A stretch of 64,000 nucleotides of DNA from an uncultured bacterium (GTDB lineage Bacteria > Bacillota_I > Bacilli_A > RFN20 > CAG-826). The DNA lies in the NCBI GenBank assembly GCA_949290395.1, contig CASERQ010000005.1:49761-113760 (forward strand). Reading direction: 5' to 3'. A program made the translations under genes and the position numbers. The notes under the pieces were generated by a model that made no database searches, was not told where the DNA came from, and saw only the letters and a list, made by a program, of their open reading frames with translations. This document shows, one piece after another, positions 4,021 through 31,824 of the stretch (positions are counted from its first letter, which is position 1; each line of letters begins with the position of its first letter).

Positions 4021-4157
4021 GCATAAATTTTTCAAAAAACTTGCAAAACTTAAACATTTTTTTTGAAATAATTCTCTTATCTAGTTCATTTTAAGGCTTT
4101 AGAAAACCTTACTTTTTATTTAGATTATGAAAACGCTTTCCAAAAGTAGATAATACT

Positions 4158-4180
4158 CTTTAATTGTTTTACAATTAAAG
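4158..4180 (+). promoter_or_regulatory. Leader hairpin directly before the second polymerase-like gene
   Basis: A perfect 10-bp stem (CTTTAATTGT / ACAATTAAAG) with a 3-base loop ends two bases before the ATG at 4183. No Shine-Dalgarno is visible, and if transcribed the stem would cover the initiation region. It could also be a dyad operator. A similar 10-bp/3-base hairpin stands at 5883-5905. Confidence 0.5.
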
Positions 4181-4182
4181 CG

Positions 4183-5850: not shown

Positions 5851-5882
5851 AGTGATAATTTTTAAAAGTTTATTAAACTATT

Positions 5883-5905
5883 ACATAAATCTTTAAGATT
5901 TATGT
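5883..5905 (+). promoter_or_regulatory. Leader hairpin upstream of the initiating transferase
   Basis: A perfect dyad ACATAAATCT / AGATTTATGT with a 3-base centre, 65 bases before the ATG at 5971. There is no following T-run, so it is more likely an operator or RNA-stability element than a terminator. Same geometry as the hairpin at 4158-4180. Confidence 0.5.
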
Positions 5906-5970
5906 ATCAAAAAACAACTTTAAAAACTCTTATAGAAATTATAAATATTCGTGTTAAAGGAGAAAAAAAG

Positions 5971-7560: not shown

Positions 7561-7565
7561 CTTTC

Positions 7566-8390
7566 ATGAAAGGTAATATGAGACTTTGCTGTTTAATGTC
7601 GATTTATAAAAAAGATAATGTTGAATGGGTTGAAGAAGCGATTAAAAGTGTTGTTAATCAAACAAAAATCCCTGATGAATTTTTAATTGTTGGCGATGGG
7701 CCATTAAATAATGATTTGCAAAATCTTATAAACTCATATTCTGAAAAATTCCCATTTATTAGATTCATTACCTATCCCGAAAATAAAGGTTTATGGTTCG
7801 CGTTAAAGTACGGAGTTGAAAAAACTGAATGCGAATTAATTGCCAGGATGGACTCCGACGATATTTGCGACAACAGAAGATTCGAATTAGAGTTTGATGA
7901 ATTTCAAAAAAATCCTTCTTTAACAATGGTTGGATCAAACACTGTTGAGTTTGAAAACTCTATAGATAATGTTATTTCAACTAGAAAAATGCCTCTTAGT
8001 GACGAGGAAATAAAAAAATATTTAGAAACACGCAACCCTTTTATTCATTCTTCAGTAATGTTTACAAAAGGAAGCTGCTTAAAAGCTGGAAATTATCAAA
8101 ATAGTTATCTTTGCGAGGACTATGATCTTTGGGCTAGAATGTTTTTGTCAAATGCTGTTTTCAAAAATATTGACCAAAACTTAGTTTATATGAGAGTCGA
8201 CAAGAATTTTTATAAAAGAAGAGGTGGCTTGAAATATGTTAAAGCTATTCTAAAATTAAAGAAATTCTTATATAAAAATAAGATTAGTTCTTTCAAAAGT
8301 TATTTTATATCAAGTTTAGCAACTCTTGTAATTGGGCTTTGTCCAAACTTTATTAGAGAATTCTTTTATAAAAGGTTTTTGAGATCATGA
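7566..8390 (+). CDS. Family 2 glycosyltransferase
   Basis: 274 residues, GT-A fold. After the first strand (LCCLMSIYKKD) comes SVVNQT and FLIVGDGP, with the metal-binding RMDSDD near residues 95-100, as in the WcaA/AmsE subgroup that adds sugars to lipid-linked repeat units. The C-terminal helix is hydrophobic (about 245-262) and probably membrane-associated. GAGGAG at 7549-7554 precedes the start. It overlaps the next gene by ATGA, which indicates translational coupling. Donor and acceptor unknown. Confidence 0.9.
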   Translation: MKGNMRLCCLMSIYKKDNVEWVEEAIKSVVNQTKIPDEFLIVGDGPLNNDLQNLINSYSEKFPFIRFITYPENKGLWFALKYGVEKTECELIARMDSDDICDNRRFELEFDEFQKNPSLTMVGSNTVEFENSIDNVISTRKMPLSDEEIKKYLETRNPFIHSSVMFTKGSCLKAGNYQNSYLCEDYDLWARMFLSNAVFKNIDQNLVYMRVDKNFYKRRGGLKYVKAILKLKKFLYKNKISSFKSYFISSLATLVIGLCPNFIREFFYKRFLRS

Positions 8391-9445
8391 AAAAGATTTT
8401 AATGATACTAACAACTTTAAAGAAAAGCGATGGCGTAGCTAGTTTTTGCATGAACTATTATTCTCATATAAATCATGATAAGTTTAAAGTTGATTTTGTT
8501 GTCCATAATGATGAAGTATATGATGACTACAGGAATTTAATTGAACAATCAAATGATAAAATTTTTGTTTTTCCAACTTTATCACCTTTAAATTTTAAAG
8601 ATATCAAATCACAATTTTTAAAAATTTTAAATGATGGAAATTACGATGTCTGTCATTGTAATTTATCAAATATGGCATTTATTTATTTAAAACTTGCTAA
8701 AGAAAAAGGTGTTAAAGAAAGAATTATTCATTCGCATGCAACAAAATTTTCTGACTCTAAATTAAAGTCCATCAGAAACTATCTTCTATGGAAAATTGGT
8801 AAAAAATATGCAAATAAGAATCTTGCTTGTTCTAATCTAGCCGGAAAATTTCTTTTTAAAAAGGGTAAATTCACGGTAGTAAATAACTGCATTTCTTTTG
8901 ATAGATTTAAATATGATTTCGAAAAAAGAAAAACGTTTAGAAATGAGTTCGGCATTAATGATAACGACATTGTTTTTGCTTGTATTGGAAGAATTTCAAA
9001 GCAAAAAAATCAATTATTTATAGTAAAAAACCTTGCAAAACTCTTACCAAATTCTAAATTTTACTTTGCTGGTTCGAATGCTTCTGATAAATATTATGAA
9101 AAATTTAAAATAGATCTTCCAAGTAATTGCATTTATTTAGGAAGTCTTGATAAAGTGGACAATTTGTTGAATGGTTCGGATGTTTTACTTATGCCTTCTA
9201 AATTTGAAGGACTCCCAGTAACGGCCATTGAAGCGCAAGCAACAGGTCTTACCTGTTTTCTATCTGATAAAATTACAAAAGAAGTTAATCTAGGCCTGTG
9301 TTCTTTTTTAAAGTTAAATGCAAAAACTTGGAAAGAAAAAATAACTTTAGGCAAACTTCCTGATAGAGTTAGTGGCTATTTTGAGGAGTATGACATTGGA
9401 AAACAAGTTAAAAAACTTGAATCAATCTATAACGAGGAATTTTAA
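8387..9445 (+). CDS. Family 4 glycosyltransferase
   Basis: 352 residues with a GT-B fold. The N-terminal part has the acceptor-domain GVASFCMNYY loop and IIHSHATKFS; the C-terminal part has the donor-binding ACIGRISKQKNQ, then MPSKFEGLPVTAIEAQATG, where the E-x7-E motif lies. This is the EpsF/CapM-like group. It starts in an ATGA overlap with the previous gene and ends two bases before the next ATG. Sugar unknown. Confidence 0.92.
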   Translation: MKKILMILTTLKKSDGVASFCMNYYSHINHDKFKVDFVVHNDEVYDDYRNLIEQSNDKIFVFPTLSPLNFKDIKSQFLKILNDGNYDVCHCNLSNMAFIYLKLAKEKGVKERIIHSHATKFSDSKLKSIRNYLLWKIGKKYANKNLACSNLAGKFLFKKGKFTVVNNCISFDRFKYDFEKRKTFRNEFGINDNDIVFACIGRISKQKNQLFIVKNLAKLLPNSKFYFAGSNASDKYYEKFKIDLPSNCIYLGSLDKVDNLLNGSDVLLMPSKFEGLPVTAIEAQATGLTCFLSDKITKEVNLGLCSFLKLNAKTWKEKITLGKLPDRVSGYFEEYDIGKQVKKLESIYNEEF

Positions 9446-9976
9446 ATGAAAAAAATTATCTTAAAAATTTATACATTACTACAAAAAATCTTTTTTAAGA
9501 TACGTTTTGGCAAAAAAATTTTAATCGGAAAAAATTGTAAGTTTGGCAAAAATAATTATTTTAAAATAAGAAAAAATACAAATGTTGGAATAGGAAACAA
9601 TTTTCTTTCAAGGAATAATGTTACTATAAATACAGAAAAAGGCGGTTCAATCGTTATAGGAAAAAATGTTTTTATTAATTCAAATTCTATGGTTGTTGCA
9701 CTTGGGGATAATATTTTAATTGGAGACAATGTCCTAATTGGAGATAACGTTACTATAATTAATCATAACCACTTAAAAATTGATAACGAAAGTTTTGATT
9801 ATAAAGCAATTACGATTGGTAGTAATGTATGGATCGGATCTCACTCTGTAATTTTAGAAGGTGTTCATATTGGCGATAATGTCAAAATTGCAGCTGGTTC
9901 TATTATTACAAAAGATGTTCCAGATAACACAACCGTAATTCAAAAAAAGGAGAATACATACATTGAAAGAAAATAA
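9446..9976 (+). CDS. Left-handed beta-helix (hexapeptide) acyltransferase
   Basis: 176 residues built largely of [LIV]-G-x4 hexapeptide repeats from about residue 28 to 165 (for example IGDNVLIGDNVT and IGSNVWIGSHS), including the conserved N-H of the loop IINHNH, as in the sugar O-acetyltransferases WcaF and NodL. It probably O-acetylates a sugar of the repeat unit. The N terminus is basic and amphipathic. An AACGAGGA site precedes the start. The last 14 bases overlap the next gene. Confidence 0.9.
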   Translation: MKKIILKIYTLLQKIFFKIRFGKKILIGKNCKFGKNNYFKIRKNTNVGIGNNFLSRNNVTINTEKGGSIVIGKNVFINSNSMVVALGDNILIGDNVLIGDNVTIINHNHLKIDNESFDYKAITIGSNVWIGSHSVILEGVHIGDNVKIAAGSIITKDVPDNTTVIQKKENTYIERK

Positions 9977-10844
9977 AGTTGCCATTTTAATTTGCTTTCA
10001 CAAGAATTTTCATCAATTGTTTAGATTTATAAAATGCTTTGATGTTTCTCTTTTTGATATATTCGTTCATATTGATAGAAAAACAACAAGGGAAGATCCT
10101 TATTATGAAAAAGTTAAAAATTTACCAAATGTAAGTATTTTAAATGAAGAAAACTCCTTTGATGTAAACTGGGGCAAATTCTCACTAGTTGAAGCACAGC
10201 TTAGCCTTTTAAAAGAGGCTTCTAAGAATGAGTATCTTTATTACCTATTTTGTTCAGGACAAGATTTTTTGGTAAGAAAATCAAAAAGCTTATATGCATA
10301 TCTAAAAGATAATAGAGAATTTTGTTTAAATGATTTAGTCACATCTGATGTTTCTAGATTTGAAAGAAGAAACAAATATAGAATTTTTGAATTCTGTTAT
10401 AAAAGAGATTTTTTATCAAAAATTTTAAAAAAGATTTATTTTTCAAAGTTAAATTTATTTAAGTTTTTGTTTATTAGAAGCGATTACAAAAAAATAATAA
10501 AAAATGTGAAATTTTATTATGGAAGTAACTGGATTGGTATTAATTATGGAATGGCTAAAGAAGTGTTTGATTTTATTAATTCCATTAGGGGATTTCCTGA
10601 TTTTATGAAGAAAAGTCTTATTCCTGATGAATCATTTTTCCAAACAATTCTTATCAATAAAGGATTTAAATTTAAAGAGGGCGTGTTTTATATTGATTGG
10701 TCTGAAGGCAAATCTTCCCCTAAAATTTTGAATGAATCAGACTATTTTGATATTATTAAGTCTAACAAATTTTTAGCGAGAAAATTTGACGAAAAAATTT
10801 GTGATAGTATTATTCAAAAGTTTGAAGAAGAGGTAGGAAGTTAA
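9963..10844 (+). CDS. Family 14-like glycosyltransferase (core-2/I-branching enzyme type)
   Basis: 293 residues, TTG start at 9963 supported by GGAG about ten bases upstream. The opening VAILICFHKN, FVHIDRKT, the W-G-K-F-S-L-V-E-A segment and the later GSNWIGINYGMA and IPDESFFQT are the landmarks of the branch family (GT14), whose members transfer beta-linked N-acetylglucosamine or xylose. Bacterial members are common in capsule clusters. The overlap with the acetyltransferase gene suggests coupled translation. Confidence 0.85.
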   Translation: MKENKVAILICFHKNFHQLFRFIKCFDVSLFDIFVHIDRKTTREDPYYEKVKNLPNVSILNEENSFDVNWGKFSLVEAQLSLLKEASKNEYLYYLFCSGQDFLVRKSKSLYAYLKDNREFCLNDLVTSDVSRFERRNKYRIFEFCYKRDFLSKILKKIYFSKLNLFKFLFIRSDYKKIIKNVKFYYGSNWIGINYGMAKEVFDFINSIRGFPDFMKKSLIPDESFFQTILINKGFKFKEGVFYIDWSEGKSSPKILNESDYFDIIKSNKFLARKFDEKICDSIIQKFEEEVGS

Positions 10845-10845
10845 T

Positions 10846-12150
10846 TTGGTTATTACTAAGAACAAAGTATTATTTTTAGCATTAATATGTTTAACCATAT
10901 TAGGTTTTTTTGTAACTGTTCCTATTCAATTTCTTTCGGTTGGTATTTTTTTATCCTTAATAATATATATTGTATTTGTATTTCAAAAGATTGATGTTTG
11001 CTTTTCTTTGATGATGCTATTTCTACCGTTGCAGGGACTTTTTGACAATAGCGGATTTGTTTATTTTTATAATATTTTAATTTTTCTTTTTGCTTTAAAA
11101 CTCTTCTATCATTCAGGGATGAGATTATATCCGCCACTTTTGGTAATTATATTTTTATATATTTATAATGCTGCTTTACTCTTTATTAACTTTACTGATT
11201 TATCTTCTTTTTTAGGCGCAACATCATTTTTTGTTAGCATTACATGTTTTCTATATGCTTCAAGGATGAAAGAAAAACTAAGCTTTTTAAACAAGCGCAA
11301 TTTAATAATGTATTTTATTGGTTGTCTTTTAAGTGGATTTTTTAGTTACTTTAATCTATTTAGAGAATTTGGTTTTAGTTTAGATATTAGACTTGTGAGT
11401 TTAGCAAGAGACGCAAATTATTTTGCTACATATTGCTTATGTGGCTTCTTTTTAAGCACTTTTTATATTGTTAAAATTGCAAGAACAAACAGTGAAAAGT
11501 GGCTATTTAGAATGATGAAATACGCTTTTTTAATTCTTGGGTTATTAACGACGTCTAAGATGTTTTTACTTTTGCTAGTAGTCGGAGTTGCGATATCTAT
11601 ATTATTTAATTTGCGTTTTTACAAAATAAAAACTATAGTTTTGCGGGTTTTTTTGATAATTGGCGCTGTTTTAGTGCTCTATTTTACTGGGATTTTAGAG
11701 TTTTTTATTGATAGATATATAGGTAGAATTGATTTTTCAGACATCACAACTGGACGTGTTGAAATCTCTTTAGCTTTTCTTGAAGAACAATTTAAAAGTG
11801 TTCCAAGAGTCCTTTTTGGTGTAGGTACAAATTACAATAACGTCTATAATATTCAATACAATTCGGAACATATGTCTTGTCATATGGCTTACTTAGAAAT
11901 GTTCCTTTCTTTAGGTCTTTTTGGAAGCCTTGTTTTTATGGGTTTAATTTTTAGCATACTTTATCGTTTTTGGAAAAAGTCACCTTTTTATCTTAATCAT
12001 CTTTCATATGCTTTAGCATTATTTTTACTTTGCGCTTTAGCTCTCCCTATTTTTACCAACGATGCAATGTGGATTTTTGCGTTATATCTTGTGGGAATAA
12101 TATATAGTGGAAACAAGTTATTATATAACGCTAGAGGAAGAAGAGCATGA
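10846..12150 (+). CDS. Wzy-type polysaccharide polymerase (putative)
   Basis: 434 residues with about 11-12 hydrophobic helices and little else, as usual for Wzy. TTG start at 10846 one base after the previous stop, behind AGAGGTAGGA. A long external loop (about 285-345) contains GRVEIS and VLFGVGTNYNN followed by HMAYLEMFLSLGLFG, the arrangement seen in O-antigen polymerases and ligases. It is inside the glycosyltransferase operon and next to the flippase, so it is the best candidate for the repeat-unit polymerase of this locus. Confidence 0.8.
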   Translation: MVITKNKVLFLALICLTILGFFVTVPIQFLSVGIFLSLIIYIVFVFQKIDVCFSLMMLFLPLQGLFDNSGFVYFYNILIFLFALKLFYHSGMRLYPPLLVIIFLYIYNAALLFINFTDLSSFLGATSFFVSITCFLYASRMKEKLSFLNKRNLIMYFIGCLLSGFFSYFNLFREFGFSLDIRLVSLARDANYFATYCLCGFFLSTFYIVKIARTNSEKWLFRMMKYAFLILGLLTTSKMFLLLLVVGVAISILFNLRFYKIKTIVLRVFLIIGAVLVLYFTGILEFFIDRYIGRIDFSDITTGRVEISLAFLEEQFKSVPRVLFGVGTNYNNVYNIQYNSEHMSCHMAYLEMFLSLGLFGSLVFMGLIFSILYRFWKKSPFYLNHLSYALALFLLCALALPIFTNDAMWIFALYLVGIIYSGNKLLYNARGRRA

Positions 12151-13133
12151 ATTTAAACTATAAAGTAATGCTTAAAGATGTATTAAAACATCCTTCGGTT
12201 GTTAAATATTTCTTTTCCAAGTATTTAAATATTAAAAAGAAAAATAAGTCTCCTGAAGGTTTAGAAGAGAATTTATATGATAAGTTAACTCCTAGATTTT
12301 TCTCTGCTTTTAAAAGAATATTTGAAAAATCTTATGCAAAGTCTAAAGAGATAGAGAACCCTAACTTTAAAGAGATTGAGTTAGACTCAAAAGGGACAAT
12401 TTTTGTTTTTTGGTATCAAGGATTTGATAACTTACCAGAAATTTATGACATATGTTTAAAATCTCTTAAAAAGCAAAATTCAGACAAAAAAATAATATAT
12501 CTCGACAAAACTAACTACTTAAATTACGTTAATATAAGTAAAAATATAATTGATAAATTGGATAAGGGCAAAATTTCAATAACTCATTTTTCTGATATTT
12601 TGCGTTTTAATATCCTTGCTAAATATAAAAAAACTATATGGTGTGATGCAACGTTATTTTTTATCAAAAGTATCCCTGATTCTTATTTTGATTTGGATTA
12701 CATTAATATTTCTAAACAACAAGATTTTGACAAGAATGAATATAATATTTATCCAAATTTTGATTATGGAAACGTTTATTTCATAGGTGGAGAAAATAAA
12801 AGTGTCTTTAGATTCCTTTCGTATTTCTGGGAATTTTATTTAGAGTCTTTTGGACAAGTTTACGATTATTTTTCTTCAGCTATGGCTATTGAATATTTTA
12901 AAAGAAATAATCCTGAATTTAGCAAAATCGTTGCAAATCGACCATTAAATAATGAAAAATCTGAATCTTTACTCCCTCTTATAAACGAAATTGCTTCAAA
13001 AGAAAAAGCTAGTTGTTTTCTCTCAGAAACTACATTTTTCTATAAATTAAATTGGCACCCAAAATATATTGAAAAGGATAATAATGCCCTAACTTTTTTT
13101 GGCGAGATTAAGAAAGAATATGGAAAAAACTAA
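12147..13133 (+). CDS. Capsular polysaccharide synthesis protein, GT32-like glycosyltransferase
   Basis: 328 residues, ATGA overlap with the polymerase gene. The motifs IFVFWYQGFDNLPE, then HFSDILRFNILAKYKKTIWCDAT, match the Pfam 'capsular polysaccharide synthesis' group related to GT32/OCH1 enzymes: an aromatic-rich entry (usually W-x-Q/G) and a D-x-D-like site, here reduced to C-D-A. That the second Asp is not in the usual place is the same in other members of the capsular subgroup as far as I know. Late PNFDYGNVYFIGG follows. Sugar unknown. Confidence 0.8.
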   Translation: MNLNYKVMLKDVLKHPSVVKYFFSKYLNIKKKNKSPEGLEENLYDKLTPRFFSAFKRIFEKSYAKSKEIENPNFKEIELDSKGTIFVFWYQGFDNLPEIYDICLKSLKKQNSDKKIIYLDKTNYLNYVNISKNIIDKLDKGKISITHFSDILRFNILAKYKKTIWCDATLFFIKSIPDSYFDLDYINISKQQDFDKNEYNIYPNFDYGNVYFIGGENKSVFRFLSYFWEFYLESFGQVYDYFSSAMAIEYFKRNNPEFSKIVANRPLNNEKSESLLPLINEIASKEKASCFLSETTFFYKLNWHPKYIEKDNNALTFFGEIKKEYGKN

Positions 13134-14583
13134 GTCGTTTAAAGTAAACGTTATCTTTAACACTATCTATCAAATATTGGCCTTGTTAACCCCCTTAATT
13201 ACAACGCCATATATTTCTAGAATCTTCAATAGCGATTTAATTGGAAGATATTCTTTTTTATATTCAATTGTTACTTATTTTACTTTAGTAGCGGCTTTTG
13301 GCTTTAATGATTTTGGAACCAAAATCATCTCTGAAAATCGTGATAATTATGGTGCAAGATCTAAGATTTTTTCAAATATTTATATAAGTAAAATGATTTT
13401 ATCAATCGTTGTTTTGATAATTTATGGTTTTACTTTTTTTACTTTTTTAGGCGATCCCTTATCTTTGACTCTCCTTCTAACAATGGCGCTTTATATAGTT
13501 ACAATTGCTATTGACCCAATATTTTATTTTCAAGGAACTGAGAATTTTGTAAGTATTTGTATTAGAAATATTATAGTGAGAGTTCTTACCTTAGTTCTTA
13601 TTTTTATTTTTGTTAGAACAAGCGACGATCTTTATGTTTATAGTTTAATACTTTCAGCTGGTAATTTTCTTTCTGTTTTCATTATGCTTTTCTCTTTAAG
13701 AAAAAAGGTTTCGTTAGTCAAACCATCTTTAAGTGAGATGAAAAGTTTAACCATTAAGTCTGCGCCTTATTTTATTCCTTTAGTAACGAATACTTTATCA
13801 ATGTATGGATATCAGACTTTGCTTGGATTTTTTGGCAATGATACTTATAGTGGGCTTTATGCGCAAACAACTAAATTTACTTCCATATTAATTGGCTTAA
13901 TAAGTTCGATAAGTGTAATTGTTCTTTCAAGAATGTCTTACCTAAACAAGACAAAGCAAGAAGAAGAATATAATAGAAAACTTGGCCAAATTTCAAGATT
14001 ATATTGGCTAATAAGTTTACCTTGTTTTGCCGGGCTTCTATTTATTAACCATGATTTAGTTCCATGGTTTTTTGGAGATGACTATATCGATGTAGTTCCT
14101 TTGGTTTATATTATGGCAGGCTGCGTATTATTCTCTTCGCTAAATACGTTAATAACAAATCTCTATTTTAGACCAAATGATAGGATTAAAACTCACACAA
14201 TTATCGTTCTTGTTAGTACAGTGATTGGCGTTACTTTGGCTGTAGTTTTAATTTATTTCTTCAATGCAATTGGCTGCGCGATAGCTACAATTTTTACAGA
14301 TGTTCTAAGAACAATACTATTTGTTATCTATTCTAAAAAGGAGTTTAATTGGAAACTTTTCTTGAAGGAAATTAAGATACCAATTTTAAGTACTATTGTT
14401 ATGTCAGTTGGTTTAGGCGCTTTCCTCTTTTTAAATTATTATTTCTTCAATTTATCGACAACTTTTGTGATTATCATTATAGTAATGATTGGCGTTATCT
14501 TTTATGGTTTGGCCTTACTTATTTTTAAAGAACCATTTACAATTGGTGTTGTTAAAGGAATTTTGAGGAAATTAAAAAGATGA
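13120..14583 (+). CDS. Wzx-type polysaccharide flippase (MATE/MOP family)
   Basis: 487 residues with about 12-14 helices. Begins with the typical N-terminal VNVIFNTIYQILALLTPLIT followed by PYISRIF, as in capsule and O-unit translocases of the MOP superfamily that move undecaprenyl-linked units across the membrane. The ATG at 13120 is preferred to an in-frame TTG at 13099 because the family starts with a short charged segment; it overlaps the previous gene by 14 bases. It overlaps the following glycosyltransferase by ATGA. Confidence 0.9.
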   Translation: MEKTKSFKVNVIFNTIYQILALLTPLITTPYISRIFNSDLIGRYSFLYSIVTYFTLVAAFGFNDFGTKIISENRDNYGARSKIFSNIYISKMILSIVVLIIYGFTFFTFLGDPLSLTLLLTMALYIVTIAIDPIFYFQGTENFVSICIRNIIVRVLTLVLIFIFVRTSDDLYVYSLILSAGNFLSVFIMLFSLRKKVSLVKPSLSEMKSLTIKSAPYFIPLVTNTLSMYGYQTLLGFFGNDTYSGLYAQTTKFTSILIGLISSISVIVLSRMSYLNKTKQEEEYNRKLGQISRLYWLISLPCFAGLLFINHDLVPWFFGDDYIDVVPLVYIMAGCVLFSSLNTLITNLYFRPNDRIKTHTIIVLVSTVIGVTLAVVLIYFFNAIGCAIATIFTDVLRTILFVIYSKKEFNWKLFLKEIKIPILSTIVMSVGLGAFLFLNYYFFNLSTTFVIIIIVMIGVIFYGLALLIFKEPFTIGVVKGILRKLKR

Positions 14584-15515
14584 TAAGCGTTATTGTCCCT
14601 GCTTATAATGTAGAAATGTATATTGAGAGTTGCTTAAACTCTATTTTGAACCAAAAATTTTCAGATTTTGAAGTCATTATTGTTGATGATGGTTCAACTG
14701 ATAATACTTTTAATGTTTGCCAAAAATTTAAAGATGAACGAATTAAAATATTTCATACGGAAAATCATGGGTTAAGTGAAGCAAGAAACTACGGTATTGA
14801 AAAATCATCTGGTGATTATCTTACTTTTATTGATAGTGACGACTATATTTCGGAATTTTATTTGTCTGATTTAATGAACTCGATTGAAAAATTTAATTCA
14901 GATATTTCTATGTGTGATTATGTTTCTACTCCAGGTGATGATTGTGTATTTGTTAGAAGCGATGAAGAAAAAGTGATGTCTTCAATGAAATGCTTAAGCG
15001 AAATTCTTTATCAAAAGAAATTTATTAACTCGGCTTGGGGTAAACTTTATAAAAGAAACCTTTTTGGAAATGTTAGATTTCCAAAAGACAGACTTTTTGA
15101 AGATTTGCACGCCATATGTCCTCTTTTTATTAACGCAAATTCTGTTTCTTACACTGGGAATAAAGATTATGCTTATAGAAAAAGAGAAGGAAGCATCATG
15201 CTATCTTCTAAAAGAAGAGAAAGAGCAGATGAATATCTATTTATTAACGATGTGCTATTATCTTTTTTAAAATACAAGACTCTTAAAAAAGCAATCTATT
15301 CTAGGACTTTTACAAATTCAATCGACTATATATATTTAAATTATAGATATCGTGATGAACTTGCTTTTAAAGAATTTAAAAAAGCTAGAAATTATGCTTC
15401 TAAGGTTATCTTTTCTAAAGCTGCTTTTAGTTTAAAAATTTATGCGCTAATTTGTATATGTGTACCAACAAAATTAGCTCTTCAAATGATTGATAAAATC
15501 AAAAAGAAAAAATGA
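14580..15515 (+). CDS. Family 2 glycosyltransferase
   Basis: 311 residues. Canonical GT-A signatures: ISVIVPAYNVE at the start, VIIVDDGSTDNT (about 34-45), GLSEARNYGIE, and LTFIDSDDYIS with the metal-binding D-x-D near 85-90; then AWGKLYKR, as in the EpsH/CpsI-like subgroup. C-terminal ~70 residues are basic with one hydrophobic stretch. Last gene of the coupled series from 5971; 92 bases of noncoding DNA follow. Confidence 0.92.
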   Translation: MISVIVPAYNVEMYIESCLNSILNQKFSDFEVIIVDDGSTDNTFNVCQKFKDERIKIFHTENHGLSEARNYGIEKSSGDYLTFIDSDDYISEFYLSDLMNSIEKFNSDISMCDYVSTPGDDCVFVRSDEEKVMSSMKCLSEILYQKKFINSAWGKLYKRNLFGNVRFPKDRLFEDLHAICPLFINANSVSYTGNKDYAYRKREGSIMLSSKRRERADEYLFINDVLLSFLKYKTLKKAIYSRTFTNSIDYIYLNYRYRDELAFKEFKKARNYASKVIFSKAAFSLKIYALICICVPTKLALQMIDKIKKKK

Positions 15516-15607
15516 TATTTAGTACTTGAATTGATTTAAAAAGATTGCAAAATTCATATTAAATTGAGAATTACTAAAAACAACAAGGAGATTTTAAAAG
15601 TAGATTA

Positions 15608-16567
15608 ATGAACTATCTAGTTACAGGCGCAGCAGGATTTATTGGAACTAACTTTGTATTATCGTTTTTAAAAAACGAATTACACGAAGATGATTTTTTA
15701 ATTGCGCTTGATAAAGTTAGTGAAGTCTCTAATAATGTAGTTCCTTCTATTAAAGATAATAGACTTCTATTTTTAAAAATAAATTTACTTGATAAAGATG
15801 ATTTAGAAGAAGTATTTAAAAAATATAAAATAGGTTGTGTCATTAATTTTGCGGCGGAAACTCATGTTGATCGTTCAATTTTAAATCCAGAATATTTTTT
15901 CTTAAATAATGTTATTGGAACTGCTAATTTACTTGAACTTTCTTATAAATATAAAGTTAAAAGATTTCATCAAGTTTCAACTGATGAAGTGTATGGTGAT
16001 ACCTCAATTAATTCTTTAAAAAGATTTAAAGAAACTTCCACTTTAAAACCTAATAATCCATATAGCGCATCAAAAGCAAGCGCGGATTTAATTGTGCTTT
16101 CTTTTTGTAAAACTTATAAGATGAACGTTACGATATCACGTTCTTCAAATAATTTTGGCGAATATCAATATAAAGAAAAAATAATTCCTCTTGTTGTCTC
16201 TAAAGCTTTGAAAGGTGAAAAGATTCCTCTTTATGGAAATGGAAAAAACATTAGAGACTGGATAAACGTAAAAGATCATAATGATGCAATTGAATATATT
16301 TTAAAACACGGCAAAAAAGGAAATATTTATAATATTTCAACTCATAATGAACATTCAAATATTGAACTTGTAACCTATATTCTTAAAAAACTTAATAAAA
16401 GTTTAGATTTAATTTTTTATTCTAAGGATAGATTAGGACACGATAAGCGCTATGCGCTTGATACTAAAAAACTTGAAAATTTAGGTTTTAAATTTAAAAA
16501 TGAGCATTCATTTTTTGAAGATTTAGATGAATGTATTGAAAAACTAAAGGAAGATTTTCTTAAATAA
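15608..16567 (+). CDS. RmlB-like NAD-dependent sugar dehydratase/epimerase
   Basis: 319 residues, extended SDR. The NAD-binding TGAAGFIG, then AAETHVDRSI, STDEVYGD, PYSASKASAD and NNFGEYQYKEKIIP are close to dTDP-glucose 4,6-dehydratase (RmlB), including the T-D-E of the dehydratase active site and Y-x3-K. It would make a 4-keto-6-deoxy nucleotide sugar; no rmlA/C/D is present in this window, so the final sugar is not defined, and a UDP-linked substrate is possible. AAGGAG at 15585-15590 is far (about 18 bases) from the ATG, so the start is a little uncertain. Confidence 0.85.
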   Translation: MNYLVTGAAGFIGTNFVLSFLKNELHEDDFLIALDKVSEVSNNVVPSIKDNRLLFLKINLLDKDDLEEVFKKYKIGCVINFAAETHVDRSILNPEYFFLNNVIGTANLLELSYKYKVKRFHQVSTDEVYGDTSINSLKRFKETSTLKPNNPYSASKASADLIVLSFCKTYKMNVTISRSSNNFGEYQYKEKIIPLVVSKALKGEKIPLYGNGKNIRDWINVKDHNDAIEYILKHGKKGNIYNISTHNEHSNIELVTYILKKLNKSLDLIFYSKDRLGHDKRYALDTKKLENLGFKFKNEHSFFEDLDECIEKLKEDFLK

Positions 16568-24292: not shown

Positions 24293-25090
24293 ATGATGAA
24301 AAGAAAATTTTTAGCTGTATTTTTACCTATAATCGGAACTGTCGCTGTTGTCGGCAGTGGTTTTAGTGCTTGGTATTTCGGAACTTCGACATCAGGAGCT
24401 GCTAAACCTTTTAGCGATGAGATTAATGTTGATATCACTCAAGTTGTTAACAATGAGGGCAAGACTAAGTTAACTATTGATACTAATGCCGAAAAGGATG
24501 AGATGTTCCATGGACAAGATTTATATTTAGATCAAGGCGGGTCGGATGTTAACGGTCTAAATTATGAAGATTCAGGTATTCTTTTTAGTAACAAAGCTAT
24601 CACTGGACAAGCATCTGATTATACAGCGGCTAATGACCTCTTTTTTGAGTTTACAGTTTCTTTAGAAGAAGATGTGCTAAATGGTCTTACTTTAGAGAGG
24701 TTATACGATGCAGGGATGGAATTAAAAATTGCTTTTAAAATTACTCTTCCAGAGAATTTAGCACAATATATAAAATTCCAAGACAATGTTTCACTCGAAG
24801 GAAGTGTAGATGCTAAACAAGATTTAACTCTTACTAATGGTAAAGTTGAATGGACAGTACCTGATCCAGCAGGAACAGCAGGAAGCACAAATCCAACGAC
24901 TTCTGGCACTTGGAAATGGACATTTAGATTAGACTGCTCTACAACTGGTACAGAAAATGCGTATAAGAATGCTTTGTTTACGTGGGTTGACACCAAAAAA
25001 CCTACAAACATGGAAACTTTCACAGCAATGGATACAGCTTTAACAACAGTTTCTCCAATTACTTTTGGCGTTACCGCTACTATTGCTTAG
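24293..25090 (+). CDS. Secreted fibre-like protein A (TasA/camelysin-like context)
   Basis: 265 residues. The N terminus (basic MMKRK, a hydrophobic core to about residue 22, then GSGFSAWYFGTS) is a signal peptide with the position of the conserved motif that in TasA/camelysin precursors is a G-x-x-[A/F]-x-F type site for SipW. The rest is soluble, beta-rich and Thr/Asp-rich, without Cys pairs of note, an LPxTG motif or a second membrane segment. The family is unrecognised. It is the first gene, with a strong AAGGAAGGA site, and is followed by a stable hairpin; I infer it is the major, most expressed subunit. Confidence 0.7.
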   Translation: MMKRKFLAVFLPIIGTVAVVGSGFSAWYFGTSTSGAAKPFSDEINVDITQVVNNEGKTKLTIDTNAEKDEMFHGQDLYLDQGGSDVNGLNYEDSGILFSNKAITGQASDYTAANDLFFEFTVSLEEDVLNGLTLERLYDAGMELKIAFKITLPENLAQYIKFQDNVSLEGSVDAKQDLTLTNGKVEWTVPDPAGTAGSTNPTTSGTWKWTFRLDCSTTGTENAYKNALFTWVDTKKPTNMETFTAMDTALTTVSPITFGVTATIA

Positions 25091-25114
25091 TTTTTAACTC
25101 ACAAATCCCCTTTA

Positions 25115-25157
25115 CTAAACGTATGGGCTCTATGCCTTTTCAGGCCCATACGTTTAG
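25115..25157 (+). promoter_or_regulatory. 14-bp intercistronic hairpin between fibre gene and peptidase gene
   Basis: CTAAACGTATGGGC (25115-25128) pairs perfectly with GCCCATACGTTTAG (25144-25157) around a 15-base loop. No U-run follows, so it is more probably an mRNA-stabilising or partial-attenuation element that keeps protein A in excess over the downstream peptidase. Confidence 0.65.
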
Positions 25158-25176
25158 CCATAATTAGGTATTTTAA

Positions 25177-26247
25177 ATGACTGGACAAGAATTATTAGGA
25201 AACGTTGCTTTTTATGTATCTTTGATAGTCGTTATTGCAATGGCAATAACTTTTTCTATACTTTTTGGAATTTACGGATACTACAAAATTAAACATATTA
25301 AGTATGGACATGAAGACATTCAATTAGAAAAATCACTTCGTAATAGATATAAAGAGATTATACGTAAAAACGAAGACAAGAATTTAAAGATGTCCGATGT
25401 TGAACATAGTAGAATGGCAAATAAACCAGACTATGTTTTAGTCCAAAATGATCCACATGTTAAAACATTTACTTTAGTTGGCGAAAAAGAAGTAGAAGAA
25501 AAGCTTGAACCAACAACAGTAGTAGAAGCAATCCTTGAAGAAAAGAAAAAATCAAAGAAATGGAGAGTTGTCTCTAATATTTTCTTTGCCATTTTTTATA
25601 TTCTTTTGTTGATTTTATTAGGAGTTTCTATTGCATTTAACGTAACTAATCGTCAGTTATATATTGGGAACCAAGGACTTGTTACTATTAGAACAGGTTC
25701 AATGGAAACTGCTAATGAAAACAATGACTACCTTTTTGAAGAGGGTTTAGATAAGCCAGAAGACCGTATTGTTCAATATTCTCTTATTAGTGTCACAAAA
25801 GTAACCTCTCCTGAAGATATGGAGCTTTACAAGATTTATGGATATAGAACTGAAGACAATATTCTTGTTTTCCATAGACTTATTCGTATATATACAAGTC
25901 CAGAGTCTGGCATTACATATTACACATTTAGAGGTGATGCTAATGAAGAATCACTAAGTTTTGAACTTCTTTTAGAATTTGATGATATTGAATGTATGTA
26001 TAGTGGCTTCCAAAATTATGGACTTGGTGTTGCAATTACTTACCTTCAATCAAATATTGGTCTTATTGCAATACTTTCAGCATTTATCTTCTTAATTACA
26101 TATCAAACTACAGAATATTATATTGAAAAAGCTTACGATGCTAGAACTCAGTTTATAGCAAAAGAAATAGATGCAGGGAAGATTATATCTAGCTTGCCTC
26201 CAAATCTAACTAAGAAACAAGTGAAGAAAATGGGAGAGAAAATATGA
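25177..26247 (+). CDS. SipW-like (ER-type) signal peptidase I
   Basis: 356 residues, much longer than SipW (~190). Order: an N-terminal helix (8-32), a ~95-residue charged cytoplasmic insert, a helix (131-152), the catalytic domain, and a C-terminal helix (about 286-306). Catalytic residues of the S26B type are visible: Ser175 in RTGSM, His233 in VFHRLIRI (where bacterial-type enzymes have Lys), and G253-D254 in FRGDANEE. It should cleave the signal peptides of the neighbouring secreted proteins on the outer membrane face. The overlap with the next gene is ATGA-like. The initiator region has only a weak AGG. Confidence 0.85.
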   Translation: MTGQELLGNVAFYVSLIVVIAMAITFSILFGIYGYYKIKHIKYGHEDIQLEKSLRNRYKEIIRKNEDKNLKMSDVEHSRMANKPDYVLVQNDPHVKTFTLVGEKEVEEKLEPTTVVEAILEEKKKSKKWRVVSNIFFAIFYILLLILLGVSIAFNVTNRQLYIGNQGLVTIRTGSMETANENNDYLFEEGLDKPEDRIVQYSLISVTKVTSPEDMELYKIYGYRTEDNILVFHRLIRIYTSPESGITYYTFRGDANEESLSFELLLEFDDIECMYSGFQNYGLGVAITYLQSNIGLIAILSAFIFLITYQTTEYYIEKAYDARTQFIAKEIDAGKIISSLPPNLTKKQVKKMGEKI

Positions 26248-27071
26248 TGTCTTCTCTTTCACGCAAACTTCTTGGTTTTATTATTGCGCCTTTAGGCGCT
26301 TGTTCCATAATTGGAACAGGATTTGCTTCTTGGCTTTTTGGTGGACTAGAAGATACAGAAACTGCTGGCCCTTTTGAACATGAAGTAAACGTTACGACAG
26401 AGGTTAAAAACGGTACATTTGAAATTGTTCAAGCCCCAACTCTTTTACTCTTTTCTGAAGGAACGCTAGGAGCAAGCAATCTTTTTGATGGAATTACTTT
26501 TTATTCAGAAAAAGAAGTTACTTTACCTGGCAGCGACACGCCTGTAACTACAACCGAAAGTGATTCTACATTCACTTTTAGATATATTTATGATGATCCA
26601 ATTTTAGTTGATGAAGAAGCGATAGGAATGAAGCTTAATATTGGTATTAATTTTGAGCTTATTACAAAAAATCCTAATCAAGACAACTTAATGGAAAATT
26701 TCTTAGAAATTTCTAGTGGAATTAAAGATGAAGAGAATGGATATCGTAGAGAAGATACAACAGAAAATGGTGAGTATTACTTCTTTATAACTGATAATCC
26801 TGAATACGCTTTAACTACACTCCATTTTAATGTAGAAACAAAAGATTACACTGTTGACTTAGAAAACAATCAAACAAAGAAAACTAAATGTCTTGAGTGT
26901 AGTGTTGCACTTAACCAATTTTTAAGATATGAAAACGCTGATGTTAAACCACTTGACGCTACAAATTACGCAAAATTAAATAATGCTATTAGAAATGGAC
27001 AATGGGGTTTTAATATTAAACTTATATCCTACTTTACTATTTTAGAAGAAGGAGGTAATCAAAGTGTTTAA
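26244..27071 (+). CDS. Secreted protein B of the SipW-linked operon
   Basis: 275 residues. A signal-peptide N terminus (basic S-R-K, hydrophobic 10-28) ends in GTGFASWLFGGL, the same motif as protein A. Then FEHEVNVTTEV mirrors FSDEINVDITQV of protein A, so the two are distant paralogues over at least the first 50 residues. Remaining residues are beta-rich, acidic and without a membrane anchor. Proposed minor subunit or anchor of the fibre. The gene begins inside the peptidase gene (overlap 26244-26247) and its end encodes the AGGAGGT site of gene C. Confidence 0.7.
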   Translation: MMSSLSRKLLGFIIAPLGACSIIGTGFASWLFGGLEDTETAGPFEHEVNVTTEVKNGTFEIVQAPTLLLFSEGTLGASNLFDGITFYSEKEVTLPGSDTPVTTTESDSTFTFRYIYDDPILVDEEAIGMKLNIGINFELITKNPNQDNLMENFLEISSGIKDEENGYRREDTTENGEYYFFITDNPEYALTTLHFNVETKDYTVDLENNQTKKTKCLECSVALNQFLRYENADVKPLDATNYAKLNNAIRNGQWGFNIKLISYFTILEEGGNQSV

Positions 27072-30000
27072 AAAGTTTACACATATTTTTGGTTTACTTA
27101 GTCTTCTTTTAGTTGCTAGTGTTGCAACTGGTCTTTCTATTTGGCATTTCGGAGGAAATACCAAACAAGAAGAAACTATTGAAACAGGACAAAGTGAAGA
27201 AGATAGTCACGTTTATCCTGATAACATATTAGAAAACTATGAGTTTGGTAATAAAAAGAATTTAAACCAAAAATACACATATATTTTCTTTCCTTCAACA
27301 CTTTATAATGAGTTTTATAACGATAGCCAATCTGATTCAGACATTAAAGCGACACCTGAAAAAATATTTGGTTATAACGAAGTTGTTTTAGATGATTTTG
27401 GCAACCCTGTAACCGATGAAAATGGGGTTAGGTATAATATAGTTGATGGTTCTGGACTTGATGGTTATAGTAATTATTATGATTATTTAAAAGAATATTT
27501 AAATGGTCAATCATATTCCTATCTTAAAAATGTTGCTGATGGAAGTGGAAGTCTGTTTACTAGTGATTATCCTGCTCATGGTGGCGTATTGTTTGATTAT
27601 TGGGAAACTAGTGGGTACTATTATTACAACAGATTAGTAATTAATGATCAATACGCATTTAATCATAGAAATTTTTACCAATTTTTAATGACCTATGATC
27701 AAGCAGCTCAAAACAAAAATACTAACTATTGGTCTCGGGATCATAATAGTGGGCTTGGTTACTATCATCATTACAATTACAAACTTAATCAATATTCTTA
27801 TGGTGTGAACCGTAATAATGAAATACTTTCTCCTTATTATCTTCCTAATGATGCTGAATACCCATCTAGTTCTTTCAATGGTACTACTATTCAATACAAT
27901 TTCGGTTTGGACTTGACGTATGATTATATGAATCGTCGAAGTGAAGTTGGAGTTTATATTAGTCGTCTTCAGACAAACGGGGCTTTGAGCACCGAAGACA
28001 ACGAAAATGAAGAATGGGCAAGGAAACGTAATTTTGATGAGCAGCTTCAAGAAAGAAGACAATATCGTAATGACCGTTTTGGTTTTTGGGTTGATTTTTA
28101 TGATTGGAGTGAAACAACAAATAACCCAAATCAAGGGTTAAGAGACCAATATAATCCTTATTCAGGCAGTCGATATCTTCCTATTTCAATTACGGTTAAT
28201 GGTAATTTAACTCCCGATGTAATGGCTCAAATTTTACCAGAAGTGTCTGCTTCTATGTTTGATGATTATAACTACGCTGATTTTACAACTGGTGCTTGGA
28301 TATATAATAGTGGCAACAATAAAGATGCTAATATGAATGCAGTAAATTATTTCAATTCTAAAGACACTAGTAATATTTTTGATATTATGCAAAATCCAGC
28401 TCAATATGCTGATGAAGATGGGGTTATTCGACTATATCCACTTTTTAATAACTCTAAAGGAATGTCTACTAAAAATTTGGGTAATGATAGAGACGCTTTA
28501 AAAGTAACTTTTGATTATAAAGATGAAACAAGCACTGAAGCAAAAATCATCACGCATAAAAAGATGACTTATTCCTCTGAATGGGCAAATGTTAGTGAAT
28601 ATGGACTTGATGTTCGTTATGCAGTTTTGACGAATGTTGATTTAAAGAAAGAATTTTATGACCAAATATCTATAATTGGGCAAATTTCTTATGGTGGAAC
28701 CAGCCCATGGCAAGGCTCTCATCCGTGGAATACTCAATTCTCGATATCTGGTAGTCAGATTGATAGTTTCATAGAAAGCTTTGGAGAAGGTTTATATACA
28801 TTCTATTTGGTTATTGGAAATAGTGCTAAATCTGTGGGGCAAGGTAATGTTCGCTCTTTAGCTGGTATTGAGAATTATTTAACTGGGAATAGTTATCGAA
28901 ATTCATTTCCGAATTTGTTTCAAAAAAATCTATTGACACGGGATGAACTAACAGGCACTAATGACCCTTATTACCGTGACTTTAATATCACTCCTAAGGA
29001 CGCCCAACAAGCACAATCTGAACCTCGTAGACCTATTGCGTTATTTGCTGAAAAAGTTACTAATTTAAGACTTGTTAGCGATATTCCTATTATTGAAAAC
29101 GAAAATGGCACACCATCTGCAAACCAAGATTGGAATGCTATTGACCAAAATGTTCAACAAGGTTTATTAGATGCACATAACTTTATCATAGCTGATGATG
29201 TTACGACTTATGACAAGGATAATGACGGGAATGTTGTTGGTCAAGGTGAAAAAGTTACAAACCCTTATGTCTATTTTATTCAAAATGCTGATTTTAGATA
29301 TGTAAATAACCTTTATTTTCAAATACGTTTTTCTAATCAATATATTGCCGATTCCTTAAGAGTCGTTACTGATTTTGAGGATTATTCAGAAGATCCAATT
29401 CTTGTTCAAGGCGTTAAAGAAGGAACAATAAATACTGGAGCGCCACATCAATTTGTTGATTTTCAAGTAACTAAAGATACGAGACTTGAATTGGAGTCCC
29501 AAAATTCAATAGGTGAATTTTTTATTCAAAATATTGAAAATGTCAAAGGAAGCGATGGCAAAACTAGAAGCGGATTTAAATTAAAAGATTACTATGCTAG
29601 AGGAATTTACGATATTATTCTTGTTTCTAACGGATCCGTGACTTTAGATAACGACAAAACCCAAAGAGTTTATAATATGTACATTAATCGTCATACAAAC
29701 AGTTTTATTAAGCTATTTGATGACGACCCAGGTACTTTTGAATATAACGATGGTAATGTAAAAGGAACTTTTGTCTCGCATAAACAAAAAGGTGAAAGTT
29801 TAGTGAATGGTGAGCCAACTGATGGCTCTGCTTATGCTAGTGCTAGTACAAATTTGATTTGGAATGGTCAAACTTATCTTGGAGAAACTTTAACAACAGC
29901 ATCCGTTGGCACTACTGGTTCGTTTATTGATGCACTCAATAGTTATGGTTTAGACCCATCAAAAACTTACAAAATAGTCGACGCTGTCACTCACGACCCT

Positions 30001-30132
30001 GTGGCTTATTATAAAAATGGTGTTGTTTATAACGCTCATGGAAATACAAGTGGGAATAATACTTTAGACCTCTTCATGGTCCTTAAAAACTACGTTTTAT
30101 ATATTGAAGAGCTCAAAACAACAAGTGCTTAG
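27064..30132 (+). CDS. Large secreted protein C of the SipW-linked operon (1022 residues)
   Basis: GTG start with AGGAGGT at 27050-27056. The N terminus (basic, hydrophobic 8-24, then ATGLSIWHFGG) carries the same motif as A and B. The mature part is Tyr/Asn/Asp-rich, for example GYYHHYNYKLNQYSYGV near 230-250, with no Cys-rich, LPxTG, SLH or recognisable catalytic domain and no C-terminal membrane helix. Possible adhesin or fibre-tip/scaffold protein. It ends at a bidirectional terminator. I do not recognise its family; it may be lineage-specific. Confidence 0.7.
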   Translation: MFKKFTHIFGLLSLLLVASVATGLSIWHFGGNTKQEETIETGQSEEDSHVYPDNILENYEFGNKKNLNQKYTYIFFPSTLYNEFYNDSQSDSDIKATPEKIFGYNEVVLDDFGNPVTDENGVRYNIVDGSGLDGYSNYYDYLKEYLNGQSYSYLKNVADGSGSLFTSDYPAHGGVLFDYWETSGYYYYNRLVINDQYAFNHRNFYQFLMTYDQAAQNKNTNYWSRDHNSGLGYYHHYNYKLNQYSYGVNRNNEILSPYYLPNDAEYPSSSFNGTTIQYNFGLDLTYDYMNRRSEVGVYISRLQTNGALSTEDNENEEWARKRNFDEQLQERRQYRNDRFGFWVDFYDWSETTNNPNQGLRDQYNPYSGSRYLPISITVNGNLTPDVMAQILPEVSASMFDDYNYADFTTGAWIYNSGNNKDANMNAVNYFNSKDTSNIFDIMQNPAQYADEDGVIRLYPLFNNSKGMSTKNLGNDRDALKVTFDYKDETSTEAKIITHKKMTYSSEWANVSEYGLDVRYAVLTNVDLKKEFYDQISIIGQISYGGTSPWQGSHPWNTQFSISGSQIDSFIESFGEGLYTFYLVIGNSAKSVGQGNVRSLAGIENYLTGNSYRNSFPNLFQKNLLTRDELTGTNDPYYRDFNITPKDAQQAQSEPRRPIALFAEKVTNLRLVSDIPIIENENGTPSANQDWNAIDQNVQQGLLDAHNFIIADDVTTYDKDNDGNVVGQGEKVTNPYVYFIQNADFRYVNNLYFQIRFSNQYIADSLRVVTDFEDYSEDPILVQGVKEGTINTGAPHQFVDFQVTKDTRLELESQNSIGEFFIQNIENVKGSDGKTRSGFKLKDYYARGIYDIILVSNGSVTLDNDKTQRVYNMYINRHTNSFIKLFDDDPGTFEYNDGNVKGTFVSHKQKGESLVNGEPTDGSAYASASTNLIWNGQTYLGETLTTASVGTTGSFIDALNSYGLDPSKTYKIVDAVTHDPVAYYKNGVVYNAHGNTSGNNTLDLFMVLKNYVLYIEELKTTSA

Positions 30133-30204: not shown

Positions 30205-31824
30205 CTATTTAAATGTATAAATAGTTGATATACCTAGAAGTCTTAATCCTGGATCTCCAATTATGAAGTGCTCTGCGTTAACAATAATTCCATTCTTATC
30301 TATAGTAAAGTTATAAGAAGAATCTTTTTCGTCTTTTAAAATATAGACATCATTTTTTTCTGAGTAGTAATAAAGTGTCTTTTTATCATATTGACTAATG
30401 ATGTTTTCTTTAACTTTTGAATCATATGAGAAGTAGTTAACAAAATAATTATCAAATTTGTCTTTTAAATATGATTCAACTTCACTTTCTGAGAAAGTGA
30501 TAGTTTCGTTGTTTGTTTCTTTTACTTTATATTCATCACCAGAATTTTCTAAAGAAGTGATTTCAATAATGTTTTCTTCTTCGCTAGTAAAGGTAGTTTC
30601 CTTATAGTAATAGACGTCATTTATATTAGAATATTCAATTTCTAGAGTTAAAGAAGAATCTCCAGTTTGGGATTCTGTATAATCAAAACTTAAAGTTTTA
30701 AGAGAATTAAAGAAGTTTTCTTTAGTTAAGAAATTATCTTTATTTATATCTTCTTCATTTATTTCTTTAATGTCGCCATCTTGTCTATTTAGAATTATTG
30801 GAAGAGCAATAGCTAACGCTAAAACAACTACAAAAGAAATAGAAAGTACTAATGTAGGAATGAGTTTATTTTTCTTAGAAGTATTAGTTTTTTCATTACT
30901 TTCAGATTTAATAACTTCAATTGGTTTATTATCAATTGTTATTATGTTTTGATTTTCCTTATTTTCTTTATTTTCTGAAGAATCTAGATGTTCTGCAAGG
31001 TTTTTGTCAGAAACAGGAGAAGTATCTTCTACCTCAACGCTAGTTTTATCTTCTAATTTCTCTTCAATTTTGTCTTCATCTATTTGCTTGATCTCTTCTT
31101 TTTCTTGAGGTGCTTTATCTTTTTCTTCGTTTTCTAAAGAATTAGTTTCTTCTTTGGAATCTAAATTTTCAGGGGTTTCCTCTTTTTCTTTAGGATGAAG
31201 AACAGTATCAATGACATCTAATTTTTTGTTTTCGTTATTTTCTTTTTCCTTTTTATTTTCTTCTTTTTCTGGATCAAGAATTTCCGGGTTATCGATAACT
31301 TCTTTTTTGCTTTCTTCATCGTTTTTAACTTCTTTGAGTTCTTGCTCCTTTAAAGAGACAAGAGAGTTATCTGTAACTACTTGTAAGCTTTTATTACTTT
31401 CTTCTTTATCGTTTTTAACTTCAGTCAAATTTAAAGAAGAATTATCTTTTTCCTCGTTTAAAACAGGTAGAGCGATAATATTAGACGTCTCATCCGTTTT
31501 AATAGTATCTTTCTTTTTATTAGTGGTTTCTTTTGGTTTGTTAATCTTCTTAGTAGTTGTAGCTTCTTTAGACCTTGTAGTCTTTTTCTTAGAAGTAGAT
31601 TTTTTCTTTGCGCTTGTTGTGGAAGTTTTCTTTTTTGACATAGTTGAAGTGCTTTTCTTCTTAGAACTTGTCTTTTTTGTTGAACTCTTCTTTGTGGTTC
31701 CTTTCTTTTTCTCAGTCTCTTCTTTTGCCTCAACTAATTCTTTTCCATCAACAAAAACGCTATGAGATTTATCATCGCCATAATCTTCTTCAATAATGAT
31801 TGTAGTGCGTCTTTTCTTTGGCAT
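30205..31824 (-). CDS. Single-pass membrane protein with H1-like Lys/Ser/Thr-rich cytoplasmic tail
   Basis: 539 residues. Residues ~35-115 are dense in K, S and T (KKSSTKKTSSKKKSTS type), like histone H1 or bacterial Hc1 tails; ~120-315 are acidic and Glu/Asn-rich; one helix spans about 320-344; the last ~190 residues form a soluble domain with Ser/Glu/Tyr-rich beta segments. The basic part should be cytoplasmic, so the protein may tether nucleic acid or another polyanion to the membrane. No known family was recognised. Low-complexity sequence makes other frames look open. No Shine-Dalgarno; a -10 lies 16 bases from the ATG. Confidence 0.7.
   Translation of the reverse strand: MPKKRRTTIIIEEDYGDDKSHSVFVDGKELVEAKEETEKKKGTTKKSSTKKTSSKKKSTSTMSKKKTSTTSAKKKSTSKKKTTRSKEATTTKKINKPKETTNKKKDTIKTDETSNIIALPVLNEEKDNSSLNLTEVKNDKEESNKSLQVVTDNSLVSLKEQELKEVKNDEESKKEVIDNPEILDPEKEENKKEKENNENKKLDVIDTVLHPKEKEETPENLDSKEETNSLENEEKDKAPQEKEEIKQIDEDKIEEKLEDKTSVEVEDTSPVSDKNLAEHLDSSENKENKENQNIITIDNKPIEVIKSESNEKTNTSKKNKLIPTLVLSISFVVVLALAIALPIILNRQDGDIKEINEEDINKDNFLTKENFFNSLKTLSFDYTESQTGDSSLTLEIEYSNINDVYYYKETTFTSEEENIIEITSLENSGDEYKVKETNNETITFSESEVESYLKDKFDNYFVNYFSYDSKVKENIISQYDKKTLYYYSEKNDVYILKDEKDSSYNFTIDKNGIIVNAEHFIIGDPGLRLLGISTIYTFK

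Follow-up and report, generated by a model that had tools for sequence, protein, structure and literature searches.

A SipW-like signal peptidase and three secreted neighbours in an uncultured RFN20 bacterium, a candidate fibre or matrix cassette

The four-gene cassette and its signature

The window analysed here, a stretch of 64,000 nucleotides from an uncultured bacterium (GTDB lineage Bacillota_I; Bacilli_A; RFN20; CAG-826; assembly GCA_949290395.1, contig CASERQ010000005.1, positions 49,761 to 113,760), carries a cassette of four open reading frames (ORFs) on one strand, in which a SipW-like signal peptidase of the endoplasmic reticulum (ER) type, named B, is found together with three secreted proteins, named A, C and D (Table 1). 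B and C overlap by 4 bases and C and D by 8 bases, and A is separated from B by 86 bases. All four ORFs lie where an initial annotation, made from the DNA letters, had put them, with the 265, 275 and 1022 residues that it gave for A, C and D.

Table 1. Positions of the cassette, its genes and their features in the window
Feature	Position	Strand	Basis
A–D cassette	24293-30132	+	four ORFs, one strand
A, 265 residues, secreted	24293-25090	+	ORF; 181 homologues at E<=0.001; structure model; C paralogue
A signal peptide (predicted), residues 1-25	24293-24367	+	hydrophobic segment 6-24; by-eye column alignment to TasA site
A signature, residues 21-29, GSGFSAWYF	24353-24379	+	conserved columns
Stem-loop in the A–B gap (perfect 14-bp stem, U run absent)	25115-25157	+	shuffle z; control-gap comparison
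B, 356 residues, ER-type signal peptidase (SipW-like) with three hydrophobic segments	25177-26247	+	NF046067, TIGR02228; hydropathy
Ser175 of B	25699-25701	+	invariant in 55/55 peptidases
His233 of B	25873-25875	+	invariant in 55/55 peptidases
Asp254 of B	25936-25938	+	invariant in 55/55 peptidases
C, 275 residues, secreted A paralogue	26244-27071	+	ORF; 39 matches at E<=0.001 (self included); hhalign with A
C signature, residues 24-32, GTGFASWLF	26313-26339	+	conserved columns
D, 1022 residues, secreted, GTG start	27064-30132	+	ORF; 162 matches at E<=0.001 (self included); structure model
D signature, residues 23-29, GLSIWHF	27130-27150	+	conserved columns
D N-terminal hallmark, residues 57-81 (ENYEF...YTYIFFPSTLY)	27232-27306	+	Tyr71, Pro77, Tyr81 invariant in 91 rows

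The three secreted proteins have in common a signature at the end of the signal peptide, [GA]-[ST]-G-[FL]-x-x-W-x-F-G, which reads GSGFSAWYFG in A, GTGFASWLFG in C and ATGLSIWHFG in D; the annotation had written its first position as Gly, but in D this is Ala. For the conservation of its columns, alignments were built from 120 of the 181 database matches of A, 38 of the 39 of C and 79 of the 162 of D, to which 9, 11 and 11 copies from the loci were added, respectively. Gly21, Gly23, Phe24, Trp27 and Phe29 of A are invariant in 130/130 rows, and so are Gly26, Trp30 and Phe32 of C in 50/50. The columns of D are more variable, with Ala (47) or Ser (42) at position 25, Phe (76) or Trp (13) at position 27, and Phe (83) or Leu (6) at position 29 among the 89 rows with a letter. 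A degenerate DNA pattern of the first seven positions was also run over both strands of the whole genome (1,372,557 bases, 96% complete), where it gave 4 matches, in comparison with 1 for the same pattern read backwards. The common signature exceeds chance. These 4 matches correspond to A, C, an unrelated membrane protein and a signal-bearing ORF of 62 residues that starts 215 bases upstream of a different SipW-like gene.

The residues Ser175, His233 and Asp254, by which the annotation had recognised B as an ER-type peptidase, are indeed present, as the catalytic Ser and His of this type with a conserved Asp, and the three hydrophobic segments seen by hydropathy suggest that the protein is embedded in the membrane. 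B matches the NCBIfam models NF046067 (SipW; E 1.8e-8, 34.1 bits, below the curated cut-off of 190) and TIGR02228 (E 4e-5, also below the cut-off), and its search against PDB sequences was without result. In A, C and D there is a single hydrophobic segment per protein, at the N terminus, and a sequence scan of the three found neither an LPXTG sorting signal nor a second hydrophobic segment. This agrees with the description of D in the annotation as a protein rich in Tyr and Asn and devoid of a wall anchor, since past residue 26 it contains 8.3% Tyr and 10.4% Asn, in comparison with 5.6% and 6.9% in the window ORFs of at least 150 residues.

Association of the peptidase line with A, C and D

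The association between peptidase and neighbours was studied in 146 genomes drawn from the larger family, which hold 80 distinct peptidase places once split gene pieces are joined. The best 55 of the 80 were analysed and the 25 weaker ones excluded, as was a 66-residue fragment that matches the peptidase model. A tree of the peptidase domain was made with 65 peptidases of the family and the order, namely those from the 55 best places and 10 more that came from the search for D. This tree splits into 36 and 29 loci with support 98/91, and "D known at that time", a label assigned to 26 loci, changes 2 times along it, versus 20.5 in shuffles. In the clade of B, A/C-like neighbours were found at 36/36 loci and D-like ones at 33/36, of which 10 loci contain D by construction, as they were obtained through D; in the 26 loci found via the peptidase alone the figures are 26/26 and 23/26, the latter made up of 15 profile matches and 8 calls by N-terminal motif. 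D was called in the clade by profile match at 23 loci or by N-terminal motif at 10, the motif having been written post hoc from the loci themselves. As for the three misses, the D of L129 is a profile match in the order-wide search (E 4e-9), and L128 and L133 encode proteins of 801 and 833 residues, respectively, that are D-like by eye. In the other clade, by contrast, D was found by the same rule at 0/29 loci and A/C-like proteins at 9/29, and a same-strand neighbour with a loose form of the signature lies within 6 kb at 16 of the 29 loci and is missing at 13. The neighbourhood counts and the tree therefore tie the peptidase line of B to the A, C and D substrates, and contradict for this clade the possibility, raised in the annotation as one that would speak against a common system, that the peptidase occurs equally often on its own.

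The distribution of the cassette is narrow. D was found by single-sequence search in 12/146 genomes of the family, and by profile in 28/279 genomes of the order, belonging to 9/56 genera and 3 families, so that the term "lineage-specific" of the annotation stands in the sense of a narrow occurrence that extends over three families. The peptidase adjoins D at 27 of the 30 D loci read, and one locus where it does not (L173) ends at a contig edge. The genes are arranged as A-B-C-D or, in some members of the genus, as A-D-B-C, and other families of the order have extra copies of A/C-type genes. Two loci from such families illustrate this: one has five enlarged A/C-like proteins of 299-580 residues around D (L171:4637-14933) and the other six A-like genes of 189-241 residues within the cassette (L167:7926-12980), with the appearance in both cases as if the subunits had been duplicated or had grown.

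Long C-terminal extensions were also observed in several SipW-like peptidases (L132:7187-9541, L133:6472-8121, L136:4627-7668, L137:7601-10294 and L161:7385-10534), in which at least one copy of a common domain of around 120 residues can be recognised by eye.

Comparison with known systems and with other sets in the genome

The published systems are compared here as they appear in excerpts of the cited papers. In Bacillus subtilis, the cleavage site of TasA is flanked by Trp (P2) and Phe (P2'), and both residues hamper LepB, the general signal peptidase of E. coli, whereas SipW copes with them (PMC10269814). TasA polymerises by way of residues 28-38 at its N terminus, and Phe29 is one of the contact residues (PMC9674648), and TapA starts its fibres (PMC10151520); in B. 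cereus, TasA and CalY co-assemble (PMC13082335). When the columns of A are aligned by eye on the TasA site, positions -3, -2 and -1 are taken by Gly, Phe and Ser, respectively, and +2 by Trp; C is in the same frame, and D fits too, but its -2 residue is mostly not aromatic. Judged by this alignment, cleavage would take place between Ser25 and Ala26 in A, between Ala28 and Ser29 in C and between Ser25 and Ile26 in D, in each case after a small -1 residue and leaving an aromatic one at +2 as in TasA; a general signal peptidase would therefore be unsuitable.

Like tapA-sipW-tasA of B. subtilis, the cassette has an ER-type peptidase beside secreted substrates, two of them small, whose putative cleavage sites have a small -1 and an aromatic +2 residue (PMC9674648, PMC10151520, PMC10269814). 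It differs in that none of A, C and D is recognised by a camelysin model, that A and C are paralogous (hhalign aligns their mature parts), that the set includes a third protein of around 1000 residues and that there are several peptidase sets in the genome. The sipW-tasA-calY system of B. cereus resembles it in its two related small subunits, which are processed by SipW and co-assemble there, although those are camelysins and no counterpart of D is noted in the excerpts (PMC13082335). Sortase-assembled Gram-positive pili differ from the cassette, whose secreted proteins lack LPXTG and whose adjoining enzyme is SipW-like and not a sortase. Archaeal bundling pili are another system that has been called TasA-like (PMC9674648). 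No published account of an A-B-C-D cassette was found in searches of an open-access library.

The searches agree with the annotation in that A, C and D are otherwise unlike TasA or camelysin. PF12389 (camelysin/TasA) matched neither A, C nor D nor any of the 50 rows of C, and does not figure in the 25 listed, of 37 families, for the 130 rows of A, which gave chance-level matches throughout in Pfam. Proteins with PF12389 exist in 22/247 genomes of the class, none of them of the family of the window and 0 in its own genome. TIGR04088 (SipW-cognate signal peptide) gave 0 matches in this genome at E<=10 and matched in 8/14 control genomes. NCBIfam contained no match for A, C or D, and hhalign found nothing between A or C and 18 TasA-type proteins, a mixed and poorly alignable set. 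For A, nothing was found under E 0.001 in a viral structure library, and its profile against PDB sequences was without result, as was the search with the 50 rows of C in Pfam and NCBIfam; the single sequence of C gave one chance-level row in Pfam. Two candidates for C were rejected: Pfam ICMT, matched in 23 of its 50 rows (best E 0.034), was attributed to the hydrophobic N terminus, and an anti-CRISPR protein, the sole match of its profile in the PDB search (E 0.014), to chance. In the design of its parts the cassette appears parallel to the SipW-TasA system, with an A and a C that by sequence models are not camelysins. The proposal of a SipW-type peptidase with secreted substrates of its own is supported. 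Elsewhere in the class (L070-L094), several camelysin loci were observed to have consecutive gene copies next to a signal peptidase-like ORF, with the typical GGTxAYF signature.

Besides B, the genome encodes three more SipW-like genes, which makes four in total. In L007 (C2, ~305 kb; 7521-13366), a SipW-like gene is preceded by six secreted proteins (243-279 residues) whose signatures are of the VGFSAW type, and this set may be the better expressed surface system, since by codon usage four of these proteins rank 4, 5, 6 and 12 among 85 genes. Neither A nor C aligned with the six by hhalign; one of them is a weak match, with E 0.0009 to the model of A and 0.0018 to that of C. In L005 (C2, ~76 kb; 3268-6857), the SipW-like gene comes after a protein of 803 residues with weak InlB-repeat and Ig-like matches and an ORF of 62 residues (5689-5877), both with the signature, the latter extending scarcely beyond the signal peptide and an acidic tail. 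The SipW-like gene of L006 is surrounded by several secreted proteins, which showed looser motifs by eye and no match to the signature expression.

The gap between A and B contains a stem-loop with a z of -3.9, and 0/200 shuffles were equally low. Values of z below -4 were found after A in 9/19 cassettes and in 0/29 control gaps, and a threshold of -2.5 gives 10/19 and 5/29, respectively; the p of the rank test is 0.045. What the loops after A have in common across cassettes is their position rather than their sequence. Because there is no U run here, the element is likely to stabilise the message of A, in such a way that it would raise the share of A among the products.

Around the cassette, a surface-polysaccharide cluster lies upstream (window positions 4183-16564), with matches to an O-antigen ligase-like protein (weak), a sugar transferase, a glycosyltransferase, a capsule synthesis protein, a flippase-type protein and an epimerase. 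D is adjoined by a convergent gene (30205-31824, - strand) for a protein of 539 residues with a long part rich in Lys, Glu, Ser and Thr and one apparent membrane segment, for which Pfam gave no match. An Rfam scan of the window found two tRNAs and nothing more.

A proposed SipW-type system and its alternatives

We judge the cassette to be a SipW-type fibre or matrix system. It is very likely that B processes A, C and D, and we see an about even chance that the four genes work as a whole, with B cleaving the other three and these assembling into an extracellular fibre through their N-terminal tails. By analogy with TasA, polymerisation through exchange of N-terminal strands is plausible: the freed W-x-F tail would act as a donor strand that enters the next subunit. 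A is likely the main subunit and C a minor or starting one, and both would mix in the polymer as TasA and CalY do; D, with a similar tail on a large body, is likely a terminal adhesin or a scaffold, and would initiate, terminate or anchor the fibre in a way comparable to TapA. Some results weigh against this proposal. The annotation had suggested a fold comparison with TasA; A is predicted as a beta-sandwich, and TasA was not among the matches listed for its fold search. The codon usage of A is ordinary (rank 60/85, with EF-Tu and S4 as reference), for which it was dropped as a sign of abundance. At the distant loci G371 and G372, moreover, the peptidase lies around 9 kb off or on a different contig.

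The ordinary codon usage of A would also suit a rather unlikely alternative, in which B cleaves the three proteins but these form a surface-anchored complex or adhesive coat, the W-x-F serving for recognition by the peptidase and nothing else. The signature would then be accounted for by processing without any polymer, and D surpasses the other members in size and complexity, being conserved along its full length with 40-72% identity to 79 database homologues. This explanation fits less well with the multiplication of A-type genes in relatives, and with Phe29 of A and its equivalent in C, two residues past +2, which are as invariant as described above, beyond what cleavage by itself should require. 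It is improbable that the N-terminal segment stays uncut, A, C and D being anchored by it in the membrane while B acts elsewhere; each has one such hydrophobic segment, as expected in that case, but small residues are conserved at -3 and -1, the Ser, His and Asp of the peptidase are kept in 55/55, and the peptidase clade co-occurs with the substrates. We give equally little probability to D being an enzyme or a binding protein, with A and C as helpers of its export. The 25 invariant columns in the 91 rows of D, among them Asp440, Arg456, Glu663 and His877, are in line with such a role; against it, the D of the window has no match in Pfam, NCBIfam or PDB sequences and the fold search of its model gave no clear fold, and between families conservation is mostly limited to the N-terminal hallmark. 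Clear enzymes among the homologues, which the annotation had named as an argument against fibres, did not appear, as no enzyme family convincingly matched A, C or D.

More tentatively, the fibre proposal may extend to a second, independent class of SipW-dependent polymers, with paralogous A and C subunits outside the TasA family, an invariant W-x-F tail that is both peptidase signal and donor strand, a giant D of new fold that caps or anchors, and several sets in one 1.4-Mb genome. If so, a group of bacteria with small genomes would have a dedicated surface-fibre pathway that is invisible to the present protein families, and a single genome would hold several SipW-type peptidases, each paired with dedicated substrates. 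This makes it testable how the substrates of SipW differ from those that the general signal peptidase accepts, and whether or not a single aromatic tail serves both cleavage and assembly.

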